DNA of 41,623 nucleotides, taken from assembly GCA_903898715.1 (NCBI GenBank), contig CAIUGL010000068.1:1-41623 (forward strand), given 5' to 3'. A program made the translations under genes and the position numbers. Below the pieces are notes generated by a model, which was not told where the DNA came from, did no database searches, and was given only the letters and a program-made list of their open reading frames with translations. This document shows, one piece after another, positions 4,882-34,193 of the stretch. Every line of letters starts with the position of its first letter. Within the stretch, counting starts at the first letter, position 1. This DNA comes from an uncultured Cytophagaceae bacterium (lineage in GTDB: Bacteria; Bacteroidota; Bacteroidia; Cytophagales; Spirosomataceae).

Positions 4882-4902
4882 TTTCTTTAAAAATATTATC
4901 GT

Positions 4903-4932
4903 AAAAGCCTCAGGAATTCCCTGGGGCTTTTT
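4903..4932 (+). terminator. Intrinsic terminator after the TPR gene
   Basis: Stem AGCCTCAGG (4906-4914) pairs with CCTGGGGCT (4920-4928) with one G-T pair and a 5-nt loop, flanked by an A-run before and a T-run after. It sits about 25 nt after the stop. Confidence 0.8.
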
Positions 4933-5037
4933 CATTTGTAGAATTATGTTTTATGAGGCAGCCAATAAGAGGCTTTAAATGATATTATAATTATCTATTT
5001 AACATAATATAAATTATATAACAAATTAAATAGAAAC

Positions 5038-5098
5038 TGTAGAGAAGCGATACTTCGCGTCGTTTGTGATGATTAGACGCGAGTATCGCGTTCCTACA
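5038..5098. repeat. Long imperfect palindrome, TGTAGAGACGCGATAC family, copy 1
   Basis: Arm one (5038-5061) starts TGTAGAGAAGCGATACTTCG. Arm two (5076-5098), read on the minus strand, starts TGTAGGAACGCGATACTCGC. The arms are near-perfect inverted copies around a 14-nt loop and could form a hairpin of more than 20 bp. A second copy lies at 30830-30890. The spacer before it (4933-5037) is very AT-rich and holds nothing recognisable. Confidence 0.85.
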
Positions 5099-5129
5099 TT
5101 TTTTACGAATAACCTCCTTTGTATAGCTT

Positions 5130-5164
5130 CCAATGTCTAACGTCCAATGTCTAGCGTCTAATTT
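5130..5164 (-). repeat. Heptad array 1 (five 7-bp units)
   Basis: Plus-strand units are CCAATGT, CTAACGT, CCAATGT, CTAGCGT, CTAATTT, in strict 7-bp register. Read on the minus strand this is the RGACGTT family found at 30770 and 31352. The array starts at the stop codon of the sensor kinase gene and the pattern fades into its last codons (GACTCTA). The palindrome at 5038-5098 follows it on the minus strand. Confidence 0.85.
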
Positions 5165-6522
5165 TAGAGTCTAATACTAAACGTCGTCCAGCCATTCAAT
5201 TCAGATTTTACGGTAATTTGGCCGGTGTGTAAATGAACGATCCGTTCAACAAGTGATAAACCGATGCCATAGCCCTTCGCATTGGCTGTATTTTCTCCAC
5301 GAAAGAACGGTTGGAATATATAAGGTAAATCAGCCTCAGGAATGCCTTTTCCTTCATTTTTCACCTCGATAACAATCTTGTTTTGCTCAATGGCCAGCTG
5401 TACAAATGCCTGCTTATTCGGGCTGAATTTGCACGCATTTTCCATTAAGTTTTTAATAGCTGTTAAGATCAGTTTTTCATCGCCTTTAATCATCAATAAC
5501 TCTTCGTCCTCGGGCATGAATTGTGTATCAAATAGTACTTTATAGGACGTATTTAACTTCTGTGTTAAACTGCGTGCCTCCCAAAGTATTTCGTCAATTC
5601 GAATCAACTGAAAACCAGCCTGGTAGTCGGAAACACTGATTTTATTTAATTCAAGCAAGGATTCAGTAATTGCTGCCAAATCCTGTGTATCCTCTAAAAC
5701 TGAGGCAATTGTCGACTTATAATCTGTCGTGGAGCGCTCATTTAATAAACTAACTTCTAATTGTGCCGAAATCTTCGTTAATGGGTTTTTTAACTCATGT
5801 GAAACATTGGCAATAAATGTTTTCTGAAACCGAAAGGCACTTTCGATTCGCTCTAACAAACGGTTAATGGTTGCTACCATTTTGCCGATTTCATCCTCCG
5901 AATCTGCTGTTTCCAGCCTTTGTTCTAAACGTTTGGGCGATAATAAATCCACTTGTTTAATGACCTCAGAAATAGGACTTACTGCCCTACCCGCAAAGAA
6001 CCAACCGGATATAACCACGATAAAAACGAACAAGAGAAACAAAGCGATTAGAATGTTCTTTAAATCCTTTGCATTTTCGACGGAATATTGGTCAACCGCA
6101 CCCGCAAAAACGACTATTTGGCCCTCTGGAGTCACAAATACAGTACCGAGTACCTCCAAATCATCCATTTCAAATCGAACTTCTTTCTTCTTGAATACTT
6201 CTCGAACACGATTGACATCAATATGAAAGTTGATCGTATCATTCGATCGATAAATGCGCTCATTACATGTATCGTAGGCCATTATATTCTCTCGATACAA
6301 GATATCGCGATTAGCGCGATCGATGATTCTTAATAGCTTAGAATCAACTTGTTTTACGTTGACTAATAATTCTGCGGCGGTATTTGCTTTTTGGCGCAGC
6401 CGACTGTAAAATTTGTCTTTATAGTTCTGCTGGGTGAAGACATAGATAATGAAATACGACACGAATAAAATCGCCGAAACTAAATACGTAAACTGATATG
6501 TTAGTCGGGAACGTATCTGCAT
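5164..6522 (-). CDS. Two-component sensor histidine kinase
   Basis: A 452-aa membrane histidine kinase. TM1 is at about residues 12-30 and TM2 at about 156-177, with a ~125-residue periplasmic sensor domain between them that I cannot classify. A HAMP-like segment follows (~178-230). The dimerisation/phosphoacceptor box FIANVSHELKNPLTKI has the phosphorylated histidine at H242. The ATPase domain has the N-box NLMENACKFS, the G1 box NEGKGIPEADLPYIF, and the G2 box GYGIGLSLVERIV. The start overlaps the stop of the response-regulator gene by one base (TAATG), so the two are translationally coupled partners. The signal is unknown. The last codons run into heptad array 1. Confidence 0.93.
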   Translation of the reverse strand: MQIRSRLTYQFTYLVSAILFVSYFIIYVFTQQNYKDKFYSRLRQKANTAAELLVNVKQVDSKLLRIIDRANRDILYRENIMAYDTCNERIYRSNDTINFHIDVNRVREVFKKKEVRFEMDDLEVLGTVFVTPEGQIVVFAGAVDQYSVENAKDLKNILIALFLLFVFIVVISGWFFAGRAVSPISEVIKQVDLLSPKRLEQRLETADSEDEIGKMVATINRLLERIESAFRFQKTFIANVSHELKNPLTKISAQLEVSLLNERSTTDYKSTIASVLEDTQDLAAITESLLELNKISVSDYQAGFQLIRIDEILWEARSLTQKLNTSYKVLFDTQFMPEDEELLMIKGDEKLILTAIKNLMENACKFSPNKQAFVQLAIEQNKIVIEVKNEGKGIPEADLPYIFQPFFRGENTANAKGYGIGLSLVERIVHLHTGQITVKSELNGWTTFSIRL

Positions 6523-22093: not shown

Positions 22094-22326
22094 TCGATGT
22101 ACTTTGCCTTTTCGGCATACATCGACTGAAAGGTCTCAATGACAAATTTTTGAAAGGAGGAGCTGGATGCCAGCTCCTCTATTTCTTTTTGGGAGGAAAA
22201 GTCCATGACGGAGTATTTATAACTCTGTTCCAAATGCGGGGTTTCGAATTTCAAAATGTACTTCGAGTTCCATTCGAAAAGCGAAATGCGCATGGAGTCA
22301 TTAGGTATTTCCTTGATAAAATGCAT
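22090..22326 (-). CDS. Small conserved-looking protein (78 aa), function unknown
   Basis: A 78-residue protein without signal peptide or membrane segment, with KYILKFETPHLEQSYKYSVMD in its centre and a helical, serine-rich C-terminal half. I do not recognise a domain. It is likely real because its ATG overlaps the stop of the cyclophilin gene by one base (TAATG), which is typical translational coupling. Its stop meets the M61 peptidase stop tail-to-tail with a 4-bp overlap, leaving no spare sequence. Coupling to a peptidyl-prolyl isomerase may hint at a cytoplasmic protein-folding or housekeeping role, but that is only inference. Confidence 0.7.
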   Translation of the reverse strand: MHFIKEIPNDSMRISLFEWNSKYILKFETPHLEQSYKYSVMDFSSQKEIEELASSSSFQKFVIETFQSMYAEKAKYID

Positions 22327-30134: not shown

Positions 30135-30527
30135 CTAACTGCCGACTATTTCTTTTAGTTTATCAGTCAGGTAGTCCCATAATTCTTGGGCATCTGCAGG
30201 ACTTTTGAAGGTAGATGCGCTATCGAAAATTTTCAAATACGTCGCATTTGTCAATTCACTCACGTCAAGTTTAATTTCAATAACAGCGCTTAATGGAGCT
30301 TGATCAGCTGCAGTAAAGTCAAATTTCACTGATTTATTGACCTTATTTTGAACTAAATGTCCTGTGTGGGTTTCATTGTCCCAATAAAAAATGAATAACT
30401 CAGCATTTTTTACGGTTACTTTCTCAGCAAACCATTGTTGGAGCCCTGAGGCAGAACTAATGTACGGGTAAAGTACTTTTGGAGAGGCTTTTATCTCGTA
30501 TTCAAATTCAAAATGTTGCTGTCCCAT
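30135..30527 (-). CDS. START-like (SRPBCC/AHSA1-type) domain protein
   Basis: A 130-aa cytoplasmic protein with one Bet-v1/START-like helix-grip fold: an initial beta strand with FEFEYEIKASPKVLYPYISS, then GLQQWFAEKV, several strands, and a long C-terminal helix (AQELWDYLTDKLKEIVG). Family knowledge: such domains bind lipids or other hydrophobic ligands, and AHSA1 relatives assist Hsp90; the function of the Bacteroidota single-domain form is not known to me. Its stop is 1 nt before the ATG of the LPS-export permease, and it has a strong own promoter. A link to lipid handling is tempting but is only inference. Confidence 0.82.
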   Translation of the reverse strand: MGQQHFEFEYEIKASPKVLYPYISSASGLQQWFAEKVTVKNAELFIFYWDNETHTGHLVQNKVNKSVKFDFTAADQAPLSAVIEIKLDVSELTNATYLKIFDSASTFKSPADAQELWDYLTDKLKEIVGS

Positions 30528-30550
30528 ATGCCTGCTAGTATTGATATAAA

Positions 30551-30581
30551 CAAAGGTAAACTATCTTGTCTAATTCCCAAA
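30551..30581 (-). promoter_or_regulatory. Promoter of the START-like/permease operon
   Basis: On the minus strand, TTTG (30578-30581), 19 nt, TACCTTTG (30551-30558). A full consensus match; the expected leader is about 18-20 nt before the ATG at 30527. Confidence 0.65.
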
Positions 30582-30614
30582 TCCGTGTCAAATTTAATAA
30601 GTATTCATAAAATA

Positions 30615-30646
30615 TTTGTGACTCTACTAGCTTTCAGTTACATTTG
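30615..30646 (+). promoter_or_regulatory. Promoter of tRNA-Met
   Basis: TTTG (30615-30618), 20 nt, TACATTTG (30639-30646), full consensus. The predicted start is about 5 nt before the mature 5' end of the tRNA. Confidence 0.65.
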
Positions 30647-30657
30647 CACCATGTTTT

Positions 30658-30731
30658 GGCGGGGTAGCTCAGATGGTTAGAGCGTTGGATTCATAACCCA
30701 AAGGTCGGCAGTTCGATTCTGCTCCCCGCTA
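30658..30731 (+). tRNA. tRNA-Met (CAU), elongator type
   Basis: The cloverleaf has the acceptor GGCGGGG pairing with CCCCGCT, D-stem GCTC/GAGC, anticodon loop TTCATAA (CAT), and T-arm GGCAG-TTCGATT-CTGCT. The discriminator is A at 30731; CCA is not encoded. The stem lacks the three G-C pairs and first-position mismatch of an initiator, so it is an elongator Met or, less likely, a lysidine-modified Ile tRNA. Confidence 0.93.
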
Positions 30732-30740
30732 CAAAAAAAA

Positions 30741-30769
30741 GACCTCACAATTTGTGGGGTCTTTTTTTT
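30741..30769 (+). terminator. Terminator of tRNA-Met
   Basis: GACCTCACA (30741-30749) pairs with TGTGGGGTC (30753-30761) with one G-T pair and a 3-nt loop, then eight T residues. Heptad array 2 begins directly after the T-run. Confidence 0.9.
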
Positions 30770-30832
30770 GGACTCTGGACGCTAGACGTTAGACGTTAGA
30801 CTCTGGACATTAGACGTTGGACGTTGGAATGT
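30770..30832 (+). repeat. Heptad array 2 (nine 7-bp units)
   Basis: Nine consecutive units in perfect 7-bp register, consensus RGACGTT. Units one and two are GGACTCT and GGACGCT, units three and four AGACGTT, unit six GGACATT, the last GGAATGT. No base is inserted or lost between units although individual positions vary. It runs straight into the palindrome at 30830-30890. Confidence 0.9.
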
Positions 30833-30890
30833 AAAAACGCGACACTTGCGTCTATGACAAAAAAAAGACGCGAAGTATCGCGTCTCTACA
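30830..30890. repeat. Long palindrome, TGTAGAGACGCGATAC family, copy 2
   Basis: Arm one at 30830-30852 (starts TGTAAAAACGCGACACTTGC) and arm two at 30867-30890, which on the minus strand starts TGTAGAGACGCGATACTTCG. The arms pair with few mismatches around a 14-nt loop. Arm two contains the stop codon of the dCMP deaminase gene (30886-30888, minus). Order and orientation relative to a heptad array are the same as at 5038-5164. Confidence 0.88.
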
Positions 30891-31347
30891 GTATATCTTT
30901 GTAAGCAACCACGTCTACTCCGAATTTCCGGAGGAAATCTACCCCTTCGTCGGAGGCTAAACCCTTGTAAGCCGCGTAGCTATTGAGGTAAATGACACGT
31001 TTTATCTTCATGCTGTAAATAATACGTGCACATGAAATACAGGGTGAAAGCGTGACGTAGATGGTTGATCCTTCGATGGAAGCACCATTTTTAGAGGCAT
31101 ATAGAATGGCATTTTGTTCGGCATGTAAAGCAAGTGAACAAGATCCCTTTGAATCACGTGGGCACCCTCCTTCTTTATGGAAATCTTCGTCACAGTTATG
31201 TGTGCCTTGAGGTGGTCCATTATACCCAATGGAAATGATTCGGGTATCTTTAGTTAACACCGCTCCTACTTGCGCGCGCGTGCAGTGCGATCGCAAGGCT
31301 AGTTTTTCAGCAAGTTCCATGTAAATGGAATCGAAGGTTGGTTTCAT
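30886..31347 (-). CDS. dCMP deaminase (ComEB-like cytidine/deoxycytidylate deaminase)
   Basis: A 153-aa zinc deaminase that converts dCMP to dUMP for thymidylate synthesis. Zinc ligands and catalytic residues are visible: HAEQN (H75, E77) and PCISC (C103, C106). The extra cysteine/histidine cluster (C22, H50, C52, C62) resembles the second metal site of dCMP deaminases and favours dCMP over tRNA adenosine deaminase. The last codon and stop (CTG TAG) are the first bases of palindrome copy 2, so the repeat supplies the terminus. Directly upstream of the ATG lies heptad array 3. No obvious promoter other than sequence within that array, so it may be read through from the SlyD-like gene. Confidence 0.92.
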   Translation of the reverse strand: MKPTFDSIYMELAEKLALRSHCTRAQVGAVLTKDTRIISIGYNGPPQGTHNCDEDFHKEGGCPRDSKGSCSLALHAEQNAILYASKNGASIEGSTIYVTLSPCISCARIIYSMKIKRVIYLNSYAAYKGLASDEGVDFLRKFGVDVVAYKDIL

Positions 31348-31351
31348 AATT

Positions 31352-31435
31352 GGACGTCAGACGTTAGACGTTAGACGCTGGACAATAGGTTATAAATTGC
31401 TAACGTCTAATGTCCAACGTCTAAAGTCTAATTTT
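31352..31435. repeat. Heptad array 3 (inverted arms of five units each)
   Basis: Left arm 31352-31386: GGACGTC, AGACGTT, AGACGTT, AGACGCT, GGACAAT. Centre 31387-31400 is 14 nt, i.e. two heptad lengths. Right arm 31401-31435 has the inverted motif: TAACGTC, TAATGTC, CAACGTC, TAAAGTC, TAATTTT. The arms are complementary enough to fold into an imperfect hairpin. It fills the entire gap between the SlyD-like stop (31434-31436) and the deaminase start. Confidence 0.9.
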
Positions 31436-31946
31436 AATGGTGCACCCCGCCTTCGCCGTGCACGTGACCATGTGCAAGTTCATCAGCAGTTGCCTCTCTT
31501 AATTTAATGACTTTACCCGTAAAAATTAACTCTTTTTCTGCCAATGGATGATTGAAATCCATCATTACGTTATCATCGCCAATTGATACGACAAGTCCCT
31601 GCATCCGATTTCCTTGATCGTCTGTCATCGGAATGTAATTTCCTATTTTGAGGACATCGTCTGCTTTTTGGCCTTCTACTTCAAAAATTGATTTTGGAAG
31701 GGATACGATGGCATTGGGATCTATGTTGCCATACGCATCTTCTGCTGCGATATTGAAATTAAATTCATCTCCTGCTTTTAGGCCCATCAAATTAGCCTCA
31801 AAACTTTCTGGAAGTCCACTTAGTCCGTGGATAAATACCATTGGTTCGTTTTCATCTACAATCTCAACGACGTCTGGTTGGCCATTTTCATCTGGGAAAG
31901 CAAGTTCATACGAGATAAAAACAACGGTATTAGGTGCAATTTGCAT
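31434..31946 (-). CDS. slyD: SlyD-like FKBP-type peptidyl-prolyl isomerase
   Basis: A 170-aa cytoplasmic isomerase/chaperone. The split FKBP domain (around PMVFIHGLSGLPESFEANLM and the later ELIFTGKVIKLREA) is interrupted by the insert-in-flap domain typical of SlyD. FNFNIAAEDAYGNIDPNAIV precedes the insert. The C-terminus is histidine-rich (HGHVHGEGGVHH), a short metal-binding tail as in nickel-handling SlyD proteins. A TACCTTTG box on the minus strand at 31969-31976 is a possible -7 element; the -33 element is not clear. The stop codon coincides with the start of heptad array 3, and heptad array 4 lies upstream. Confidence 0.9.
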   Translation of the reverse strand: MQIAPNTVVFISYELAFPDENGQPDVVEIVDENEPMVFIHGLSGLPESFEANLMGLKAGDEFNFNIAAEDAYGNIDPNAIVSLPKSIFEVEGQKADDVLKIGNYIPMTDDQGNRMQGLVVSIGDDNVMMDFNHPLAEKELIFTGKVIKLREATADELAHGHVHGEGGVHH

Positions 31947-31983
31947 GTAATCATGTTTTAATGAGGGTCAAAGGTAAAGAAAA

Positions 31984-32192
31984 AGTCCGAAGGAGGAAAG
32001 TCGCTAGTCCGAAGTCAATAGTAGTCAGTGGACAGTAATCAGTAGTCAGAAGTAAGTAGTCAGTAATCAGTAATCAGTGATCACAGTTGTCAGTGATAAA
32101 AAATAATTATCTTTGAAAACATTATAAAAAACGAGTTCCCACGCTACTAACTACTGACTACTTATTACTGACTACTGATTACTGACAACTTG
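31984..32192. repeat. Heptad array 4 (AGTARTC family, inverted arms around a promoter)
   Basis: The left arm has at least 12 units in 7-bp register from 32006 to about 32096 (AGTAGTC, AGTGGAC, AGTAATC, AGTAGTC and so on), with degenerate units back to 31984. The right arm 32144-32192 carries the inverted motif (CTACTAA, CTACTGA, CTACTTA, TTACTGA, CTACTGA, TTACTGA, CAACTTG). The 47-bp centre (32097-32143) is non-repetitive and holds the holA -7 box. The right arm ends 4 nt before the holA ATG. Confidence 0.9.
32087..32115 (+). promoter_or_regulatory. Candidate holA promoter between the arms of heptad array 4
   Basis: TTG (32087-32089), 18 nt, TATCTTTG (32108-32115). The -7 box matches the consensus fully, and the -33 box is part of a degenerate heptad. 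The transcript leader would contain the whole right arm. Confidence 0.5.
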
Positions 32193-32196
32193 ATTA

Positions 32197-33237
32197 ATGC
32201 AAAAATCCCCTCAAGACGTACTTAAAGACATTAAAGCCAAGAAATTTGCGCCAATCTATGTAATTCATGGAGATGAGCCATTTTTTATTGACCAGGTCGC
32301 GGATGCGCTGGAGGTTGGAATTTTGCGTGAAGATGAGAAAAGCTTCAATCAATTTGTCATGTTTGGCAAAGATCAAACCATGGGATCTGTCATTTCCTAT
32401 GCACGTCGCTATCCGATGATGGCTGAGCGACAGGTGATCATCGTCAAAGAAGCCAGTTTCTTGGAGGCTTTGGCTAAAGGTAAAGAGTCCAAAGGAAATG
32501 ATGATTTAAAAGCCTGGGAGGATTATTGCGAAAGACCCACTGATTCAACAGTTCTCATTTGTACGATTAAAAATTTAGTGGCAGAAAAGGCAAAGGTCTT
32601 GGCTGTTGCTGAAAAGCATGGGGTTATTGTCTGTTCCAAAAAGATTAAAGAAGATAAAGTGGGCGTCTGGCTCAAGGATTATTTGGCACAGCAAGGATTA
32701 ACGATTCAAGCGGCTTCATTGGAATTAATGGTTTCATTTGTAGGTGCCGATTTACAACGAATGGCGCATGAGGCCGACAAATTAGTCATTAATTTACCCA
32801 AGGGTTCTGAGGTAGGTGCTGAAGAAATTGAGCGATTCATAGGGATTAGTCGGGAATACAACATATTTGAATTTCAACATGCGCTTTCATCGCGCAACAT
32901 CGCTAAAGCACAAAAGATTGCCTTTTATTTTGCCGAGAATACGAAGCAAAATCCAGTCCCTCCCATGTTAATCATGTTATTTAACTATTTCATGAAGGTG
33001 CTCCAAGTGCATGATTTAGGGGCCATGTCGGACGCAGAAATTGCCAAAAATATCGGTGTTAACCCTTATTTTGTGCGTGATTACCTGAATGCCAAACGTA
33101 ATTACCCATTAGCTAAAGTAGTTCGCGTGTTGGAGGCAATCAAAAATGCAGATCTAAAGGTAAAAGGTGTTATTGGTCAAGCGGTTTCTGAACGTGACAT
33201 CATCCTGGATTTAAGCTTTGAGATTTTACACCTTTAG
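32197..33237 (+). CDS. holA: DNA polymerase III subunit delta
   Basis: The clamp-loader delta subunit, which opens the beta sliding clamp. A 346-aa protein with the N-terminal FAPIYVIHGDEPFFIDQVAD block typical of HolA. A Rossmann-like AAA+ domain without a functional Walker A follows, then YARRYPMMAERQVIIVKEAS. The middle-domain motif GADLQRMAHEADKLVINL and the C-terminal collar helices NPYFVRDYLNAKRNYPLAKV are present. It starts 4 nt after the right arm of heptad array 4. Its stop overlaps the stop of the convergent BatE-like gene by 4 bp. Confidence 0.93.
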   Translation: MQKSPQDVLKDIKAKKFAPIYVIHGDEPFFIDQVADALEVGILREDEKSFNQFVMFGKDQTMGSVISYARRYPMMAERQVIIVKEASFLEALAKGKESKGNDDLKAWEDYCERPTDSTVLICTIKNLVAEKAKVLAVAEKHGVIVCSKKIKEDKVGVWLKDYLAQQGLTIQAASLELMVSFVGADLQRMAHEADKLVINLPKGSEVGAEEIERFIGISREYNIFEFQHALSSRNIAKAQKIAFYFAENTKQNPVPPMLIMLFNYFMKVLQVHDLGAMSDAEIAKNIGVNPYFVRDYLNAKRNYPLAKVVRVLEAIKNADLKVKGVIGQAVSERDIILDLSFEILHL

Positions 33238-34106: not shown

Positions 34107-34179
34107 GATTCCGTAGCTCAGTTGGTAGAGCAATACACTTTTAATGTATGGGTCCTGGGTTCGAATCCCAGCGGGATCA
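34107..34179 (+). tRNA. tRNA-Lys (UUU)
   Basis: A 73-nt cloverleaf: acceptor GATTCCG with CGGGATC (one wobble pair), D-stem GCTC/GAGC, anticodon stem ATACA/TGTAT with loop CTTTTAA (anticodon TTT), T-arm CTGGG-TTCGAAT-CCCAG. The discriminator is A. CCA is not encoded. Confidence 0.95.
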
Positions 34180-34193
34180 CTTCTAAATTTAAA

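Follow-up and report, generated by a model that had tools for sequence, protein, structure and literature searches.

The window, a stretch of 41,623 nucleotides analysed at its full length, comes from a 2.3 Mb genome assembly (G000, 86% complete) of a freshwater bacterium taken to belong to the genus Aquirufa (Bacteroidota, order Cytophagales), with Aquirufa nivalisilvae among the closest named species at the level of the locus. Genes confirmed as tRNA-Met, a deaminase, an FKBP-type isomerase (SlyD-like) and DNA polymerase III delta (holA) flank three consecutive spacers (30733-32196), each of which carries an array of 7-bp units. Array 1 (30769-30828, AG-strand plus) contains about 8.5 units of the AGACGTT family and lies directly after the tRNA-Met terminator. 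Array 2, in the spacer between the deaminase and slyD genes, is a hairpin of the same family, with an AG arm on the plus strand (31353-31383) and an inverted arm on the minus strand (31400-31431) that adjoins the slyD stop codon; the fold of this slot has an MFE of -37.4 (z -7.9). Array 3, of the AGTARTC family, has its AG arm upstream of slyD (32020-32094, plus strand) and its inverted arm directly upstream of holA (32144-32190, minus strand), and by eye degenerate AGTCCGA/AGTCGCT units extend it back to about 31988. Array 4, again of the AGACGTT family, lies at 5129-5162 with its AG-strand on the minus strand, reading away from the 3′ end of a histidine kinase gene (5164-6522). One gene bordered by the arrays has the opposite orientation in one clade.

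Using lag-7 identity against 300 dinucleotide shuffles, we found that only 3 of the 22 intergenic stretches of at least 40 bp in the window exceed every shuffle, and these are the three consecutive spacers: 30733-30885 (z 6.1), 31348-31433 (z 7.4) and 31947-32196 (z 8.7), each above 300/300. In the spacer at 5130 (4882-5163) lag 7 is weak (z 2.0, equalled by 7 of 300 shuffles) and lag 14 is clear (z 4.9). Tandem Repeats Finder likewise reports period 7 and its multiples at 30768-30828, 31353-31377, 31400-31431, 32012-32083 and 32144-32196, and period 14 at 5129-5162. The arrays that the initial annotation had placed in these three spacers and at 5130 are thus real and above shuffles, and the window does contain both of its unit families as well as the inverted second arms; however, the arrays do not fill the spacers as it had stated, since they occupy just part of the first and third. 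An Rfam search of 30500-32300 matched only the tRNA and no known RNA family for the arrays, and a plasmid search with 32020-32100 as query gave no match with the BLAST low-complexity filter on.

The period extends well beyond the window. Our detector scores a match +1 and a mismatch -1.2, takes the best segment and compares lags 4-13. At a threshold of 17, 394,613 bp of G000 contain 21 lag-7 arrays and 400 kb of G006 contain 12, and no other lag gives any in either genome; in one sample the G000 contigs were picked from those already having matches, while G006 was sampled evenly. At the same threshold G031 has 6 arrays at lag 7 and none at other lags, and G011 has 5 at lag 7 and one each at lags 9 and 12. 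Further 400-kb stretches yielded 19 arrays in G019 and 13 in G006, with at most one at any other lag, and G020 and G024 have 7 and 3 at lag 7 with none otherwise. Across 80 Bacteroidota loci (1.37 Mb, threshold 18) we observe 28 lag-7 arrays in 18 loci and at most 5 arrays at any other lag, while two 50-kb stretches of E. coli K-12 (100 kb) contain no array at lag 7. A pattern search with TAGACNNTAGACNNTNGAC gave 46 matches in the G000 genome and none with the reversed control; the pattern occurs in 21 of 149 genomes including its own, and these comprise 9 from the genus, 7 from the family and 5 from the order. In the genomes sampled, arrays therefore occur at lag 7 and its multiples and are scarce at other lags between 4 and 13, and unit length 7 is over-represented as in known heptameric repeats. 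The shuffles and this genome-wide excess together exclude chance or a local accident. Of the two outcomes that would have spoken against the initial annotation, no lag-7 excess elsewhere in the genome and no arrays in relatives, neither was seen.

As the initial annotation had proposed, the arrays are non-coding: in four genomes the middle of 70 of 75 arrays lies outside ORFs of at least 100 aa (taken from a simple caller), which rules out a coding origin. Convergent spacers contain arrays most often (20 of 139), compared with 26 of 697 tandem and 6 of 204 divergent spacers (p 3e-7). An inverted partner scoring above the 99th percentile of random places lies within 250 bp of 59 of 115 arrays, and 21 of 115 have a direct partner outside the array. 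The arrays are thus intergenic and often form convergent inverted pairs, again as known heptameric repeats do.

Each lineage is dominated by a few unit families that recur at many unlinked spacers. Similar units (score at least 16) are shared by 0.283 of the pairs of unlinked arrays within a genome, compared with 0.145 (sd 0.018) when genome labels are permuted (0 of 500 permutations). Bursts can be confined to one lineage: for the pattern AAAGNNCAAAGNNCAAAG (CAAAGNN) we count 140 matches in G019, 8 in G006, which is closely related to it, and none in G000. Unlinked loci of G019 also share identical strings of several units, 28-34 bp long. These shared families and lineage bursts support the proposal, made from the window alone, that some copying process is at work.

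Within a family the bases are not free. Column variability within a locus differs between columns in 8 of 8 families (p 7e-3 to 4e-7), tests that are not independent of one another because the family assignments are loose and overlap, and the rarely varying columns are usually those around AG plus A/T, with the other columns freer. In AGACGTT, G2 varies in 3 of 22 loci, A3 in 5 of 22, column 4 in 12, and columns 1, 5, 6 and 7 in 14 to 17. The view that the period is kept while bases vary thus held for the lag-7 register, but not for the bases in certain columns; and the stronger form, that only the period and not the sequence is kept, is contradicted both by these columns and by the preferred strand direction relative to genes described below.

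One way to read such columns is that a protein recognizes a core (AG plus A/T) every 7 bp and that selection maintains the lattice. Besides the column-specific conservation, a weak cross-family motif fits this reading, with an information of 3.32 against 2.11 for shuffled units within Aquirufa (0 of 30) and of 3.04 against 2.32 (sd 0.13) outside it (0 of 60). However, by eye the core differs among families (GAC, TCAGT, CAAAG, ATGGT), the families of the column test overlap, slots gain and lose arrays between species, and we have no candidate protein, so that we regard such a lattice as quite improbable. A rule that all families contain AG did not survive, as AG occurs in 62 of 81 units and this was equalled by 145 of 500 permutations. 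AG followed by A/T is enriched in Aquirufa units (58 of 81, null 41.7) and not outside the genus (16 of 32, null 15.5), and stop codons are enriched outside Aquirufa (30 of 32, null 24.9) and not clearly within (65 of 81, null 59.9).

The spacer after slyD allowed us to follow one slot through the genus. Among 25 Aquirufa genomes it holds a lag-7 array in 19 (threshold 13), or in 20 with G006 at threshold 12, and the array is usually a hairpin whose family differs by clade: AGACGTT in G000, G011 and G022; AGAGTTA in G031; AGGTAAT in G001, G008, G016, G026, G029 and G032; AGAATGT in G015, G017, G020, G024 and G033; AAAGTTC in G019 and G007; AGAGTAT in G006; and ATAAAGC in G012 and G014. The remaining genomes have, by eye, a short palindrome TAGGTAATACCTA (G028, G009), a classical terminator (G036, G018) or a weak hairpin (G005). 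On the opposite side of slyD an array is found only in the clade of the window, in all four of its genomes.

Replacement in place is also seen when two genomes are compared slot by slot. A 400-kb stretch of G019 is collinear with G006 (88.8% identity). By eye, the 19 slots with both flanks (a count that leaves out two arrays without a flank) fall into four groups: the family is unchanged in 8, with unit numbers that mostly differ; it is a different one along the whole slot in 4; replacement is partial in 4; and in 3 the second species has no heptad array, a different palindrome standing there in two cases. G020 and G024 (86.2% identity) have four readable slots, 3 with the same family and 1 replaced in both arms; orthologous slots within these two pairs are not independent. 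Comparison of orthologous loci, suggested as a check when the arrays were first noted, therefore shows that unit number and family can differ between related species. In 13 distinct pair alignments with at most 3 gaps, 11 of 24 gaps of at least 2 nt are multiples of 7 (hand count); when multiples of 3 are dropped, as in the control, the hand count becomes 9 of 16 compared with 5 of 68 for the control. Over all pair alignments, which include gappy and doubly counted ones and are too gappy to use whole, the figure is 41 of 229.

Such bursts and replacements could be produced by mobile hairpin elements, REP or MITE-like, that are moved in trans by a transposase and leave single arrays as decayed copies. 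The dispersal of families in bursts, the identical 28-34 bp strings of G019 and the replacement of whole slots with both arms changing together would all be expected. However, array length is variable, and by eye we noticed neither constant ends nor target duplications. The Y1 transposase, the recombinase family covered here, has strong matches in G015, G017, G020, G024 and G033 but none in G000 (86% complete), G006, G019, G011, G022 or G031, and so the arrays are not REP/BIME elements with a RAYT-type Y1 transposase in these genomes. The array-rich G006, a single contig at 96% completeness, and G019, at 99%, are among those without a match, which, as far as the Y1 family is concerned, goes against the linked recombinase that the initial annotation had suggested looking for. 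We therefore consider mobile elements a distinctly unlikely source of the arrays.

The arrays have a direction relative to genes. Among the 98 arrays assigned to families, leaving out 17 unassigned ones, the AG-strand runs away from the nearer gene in 83 and toward it in 15, a gene-relative count that may be biased because a misplaced ORF start in the open CT strand can make an array seem nearer to a 5′ end. The same majority is found in all 11 families, the weakest being AGACGTT (12:7), and both at gene 3′ ends (56:12) and at 5′ ends (27:3); a further polarity count set 15 mixed arrays aside. The median distance from the 5′ end of the AG-strand to the gene behind it is 5 nt, and from its 3′ end to the gene ahead 104 nt. 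Counted per spacer, the G-rich strand runs away from the nearer gene in 63 and in the opposite direction in 16, with 6 spacers undecided and the same possible bias at 5′ ends.

Two further counts are independent of ORF starts. Of the hairpins in array spacers, 32 have the G-rich arm in first position and 2 have it in second, with 4 undecided, and hairpins in divergent spacers have the same polarity in 4 of 4. Where pattern matches stand on opposite strands at most 400 bp apart, the pair is AG-first in all 27 cases among the matches listed (hand count, ten genomes), and these genomes include G050, G051 and G056, which lie outside the genus in other families of the order. Control hairpins in array-free spacers have the G-rich arm first in 49 and last in 56, and they are purine-first 90:29; since ordinary hairpins share the purine-first bias, what sets arrays apart is the G-against-C component of the polarity alone. 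For genomes other than Aquirufa, the count per spacer is 17:9 in the same direction (p 0.17) and that of hairpins 5:1, and G011 alone departs from the rule (1:2).

The folding and pairing of these hairpins raise the question of selection on RNA. All 20 folded slyD 3′ slots beat their shuffles (z -2.1 to -13.2); 17 of them hold a lag-7 array, the other three being the two classical terminators and G005, and eight folded slots start inside the last codons of slyD. Together with the inverted-partner count, these folds bear out the shared architecture with inverted arms that was first noted in the window. The arrays might accordingly be RNA hairpins selected as bidirectional terminators or 3′-end protectors, in which pairing is kept while sequence drifts. 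The enrichment between convergent genes, the inverted partners of 59 of 115 arrays, good folding across unrelated families in the slyD slot and the purine-first bias of ordinary hairpins are all consistent with this possibility.

Several observations, however, argue against it. Hairpin mismatches on the sense strand are G-U and A-C in similar numbers in tandem (52:45), convergent (62:65) and divergent spacers (15:15), and because G-U is as frequent as A-C we see no mark of selection on RNA pairing. On the tandem-spacer count the arrays do not behave as rho-independent terminators whose RNA pairing is under selection. Unit order agrees no better between the two arms of a hairpin than between unlinked arrays of one family, and the arms do not exceed such arrays in complementarity either (30 hairpins compared with 469 control pairs, p 0.53), which also speaks against arm-to-arm templating. 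Hairpins of the same polarity occur in divergent spacers too, ordinary hairpins lack the G/C polarity, separate classical terminators stand beside arrays in G006, G007, G014 and G019 (by eye), and G018 and G036 have just a classical terminator in the slyD slot. We consider selected RNA hairpins an unlikely explanation.

Telomere fusions are convergent, with the G-rich arm first. Array hairpins have this same geometry, and heptads might thus be added at broken ends in an RNA-templated or telomere-like manner, followed by joining. However, RVT_1 has no match in G000, G011, G019, G022 or G031, and one match in G006 and in G012, so that the G019 genome (99% complete) carries many arrays and no reverse transcriptase of this kind; the linked reverse transcriptase proposed as a test by the initial annotation is not needed. 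A search of 37 Aquirufa genomes, with G000 among them, gave no match to Ku. Each genome has several families. The growth gradient that such addition predicts is also absent: the lag-7 identity of distal minus proximal units is -0.025 (p 0.10, a slight trend in the opposite direction; arrays below 35 bp or with a small G-C difference were dropped). We consider this origin highly improbable. Altogether, the arrays do not seem to require Y1 transposase, reverse transcriptase (RVT_1) or Ku.

The initial annotation knew no named family for these repeats, which is only partly right: heptamer repeats with a similar architecture have been published for Xanthomonas, Nostoc, Beggiatoaceae and five Bacteroidetes, and the arrays belong with these known bacterial heptamer repeats. 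The comparisons below apply to the sections of the three papers considered here. Rehm et al. (2015; PMC4692102) described GGGAATC and GGGGA(C/T)T repeats in Xanthomonas and Nostoc, units with G-runs that form G-quadruplexes in vitro. The same direction preference was reported for GGGAATC repeats, with 70 convergent pairs in one Xanthomonas genome and 75 in another. Nostoc has few inverted pairs, whereas about half of the Aquirufa arrays are paired; moreover, the Aquirufa units are mostly without G-runs, and several families share a genome and replace one another (compare PMC4692102). GGG or CCC occurs in just 9 of 98 Aquirufa arrays, which separates them from heptamers of the GGGAATC type, and since the units mostly lack G-runs, G-quadruplexes cannot explain the polarity here.

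Kaasalainen et al. (2015; PMC4476775) reported classes of 7-nt repeats in the P6b stem of the Nostoc trnL intron. The likeness lies in a hairpin of degenerate 7-nt units, in repeated class replacement at one site with the structure kept, and in indels of whole repeat units; however, that system has one intron locus and two classes, whereas Aquirufa has many intergenic loci and at least 11 unit families (PMC4476775). The arrays are intergenic and do not lie in a group I intron, and so they are not the P6b repeats. MacGregor (2015; PMC4679880) described TAACTGA direct repeats in Beggiatoaceae, Cyanobacteria and five Bacteroidetes. These too are intergenic heptamers that include Bacteroidetes, the strand on which they stand before start codons (ACT sense) fits the Aquirufa polarity, and in two Cyanothece strains indels are mostly in 7-nt steps (PMC4679880). 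They differ in being mostly one exact heptamer near start codons, related heptamers being rarely repeated in the Guaymas genome, whereas Aquirufa arrays are degenerate and mostly in convergent spacers (PMC4679880); with other units and a preference for convergent spacers, the Aquirufa arrays are not TAACTGA repeats. The TAACTGA heptamer on the opposite strand (AGTTATC) is repeated in the order-level relatives G051 and G056.

Slippage has been proposed for the over-representation of unit length 7 in Calothrix heptanucleotide repeats and in the heptamer excess of Mrazek et al. 2007 (both via PMC4692102 and PMC4679880), and in the sections considered the bacterial excess of 7-nt repeats is noted without an agreed cause (PMC4692102, PMC4679880). 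The literature on Aquirufa and repeats held nothing on heptad arrays by title, in a search that left most subscription journals outside, and that on 7-bp repeats in Flavobacteria held nothing relevant among the matches listed. Two features are new in that they are not described in the sections of PMC4679880, PMC4692102 and PMC4476775 considered here: that one family takes the place of another within a slot, at many loci across a genus, and that units lacking G-runs have a polarity. The rarely varying unit columns and the absence of a sign of selection on RNA pairing are also new here.

The best explanation, to which we give about even chances, is a nearly neutral process of DNA-level copying in 7-nt steps together with dispersal between spacers. 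Arrays would lengthen and shorten one unit at a time by replication misalignment, and because misalignment would need just the core to re-pair, the register would be kept while the other bases drift. Pieces of abundant arrays would be copied into other spacers, with template switching as the likely dispersal step, and such copying between spacers would cause families to burst and to replace one another. The process would operate on DNA and extend the AG-strand from gene edges into the spacer, so that convergent arms would result where two extensions meet. The hairpin would then be largely a by-product that is tolerated between genes.

This copying model meets difficulties of its own. Distal units are not younger or more alike, as outward growth predicts, and ordinary slippage does not account for 7 alone working. 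The want of any extra likeness between the arms of a hairpin and the purine-first bias of ordinary hairpins also count against it. The polarity outside Aquirufa is not significant by the spacer method, G011 runs 1:2, and the gap count over all alignments is 41 of 229. The persistence of the hairpin 3′ of slyD and the convergent enrichment could alternatively reflect selection for the hairpin.

A wider conjecture, which we regard as a long shot, is that a directional DNA-copying activity common to Bacteroidota, Cyanobacteria and some Gammaproteobacteria extends the AG-cored heptad strand from gene edges in a fixed 7-nt step, copying units between loci and overwriting families. If true, one directional copying process would explain why units are 7 nt long, why arms converge and why they have the polarity formerly ascribed to G-quadruplexes or to regulation. 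Aquirufa itself combines a nearly exclusive period, bursts of families with replacement of one by another within a slot, and a strand orientation that depends on the nearest gene. Polarity in units mostly without G-runs and the lack of a mark on RNA pairing weaken the quadruplex and RNA-hairpin explanations, and the question becomes one of DNA copying; with Aquirufa nivalisilvae among the named species close to the locus, that question could be taken to cultured strains.

The deaminase gene next to tRNA-Met (30886-31347 of the window) was compared across loci L031-L055 from the genomes of relatives. Both the deaminase gene and slyD are present in 22 genomes; they share a strand in the four that make up the window's clade, and the deaminase is on the strand opposite to slyD in the remaining 18. 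Heptad units flank the deaminase gene at both sides in the window's clade. Within this clade, the deaminase/tRNA spacer contains lag-7 segments in three of the four genomes, with heptads visible by eye in the fourth, and none of the seven genomes examined outside the clade has an array in this spacer.

As judged by eye, the same spacer contains tRNA-Met-like fragments in G022 and G005, two Aquirufa relatives (L032, L055). These fragments have an altered middle part and adjoin the real tRNA, and those of G022 form two tandem copies accompanied by heptads. ARAGORN also called an unusually long tRNA-Lys of 101 bases in the window (22149-22249), in addition to a normal tRNA-Lys (34107-34180).

A REP-like palindrome, GACGCGAnnnnTCGCGTC (30867-30884), adjoins array 1, the AGACGTT-family array just after the tRNA-Met terminator. 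This palindrome has 14 sites in the window's own genome, of which four or more lie no further than ~120 bp from TAGAC-type array matches, and a variant was seen by eye at ~5040-5095 of the window.

Other elements occupy orthologous spacers of the close, collinear species pair G019 and G006. At ~1805300 of G006:C1, a different palindrome containing GTGCTGCG..ATT stands where G019 has a heptad hairpin, and a second slot holds a similar palindrome. Additionally, a repeated stretch containing CTCCGGACTCATTCCCTCCGGACT lies next to heptad arrays in more than one spacer of G019 and G006, and together with the adjoining arrays it may form a composite.
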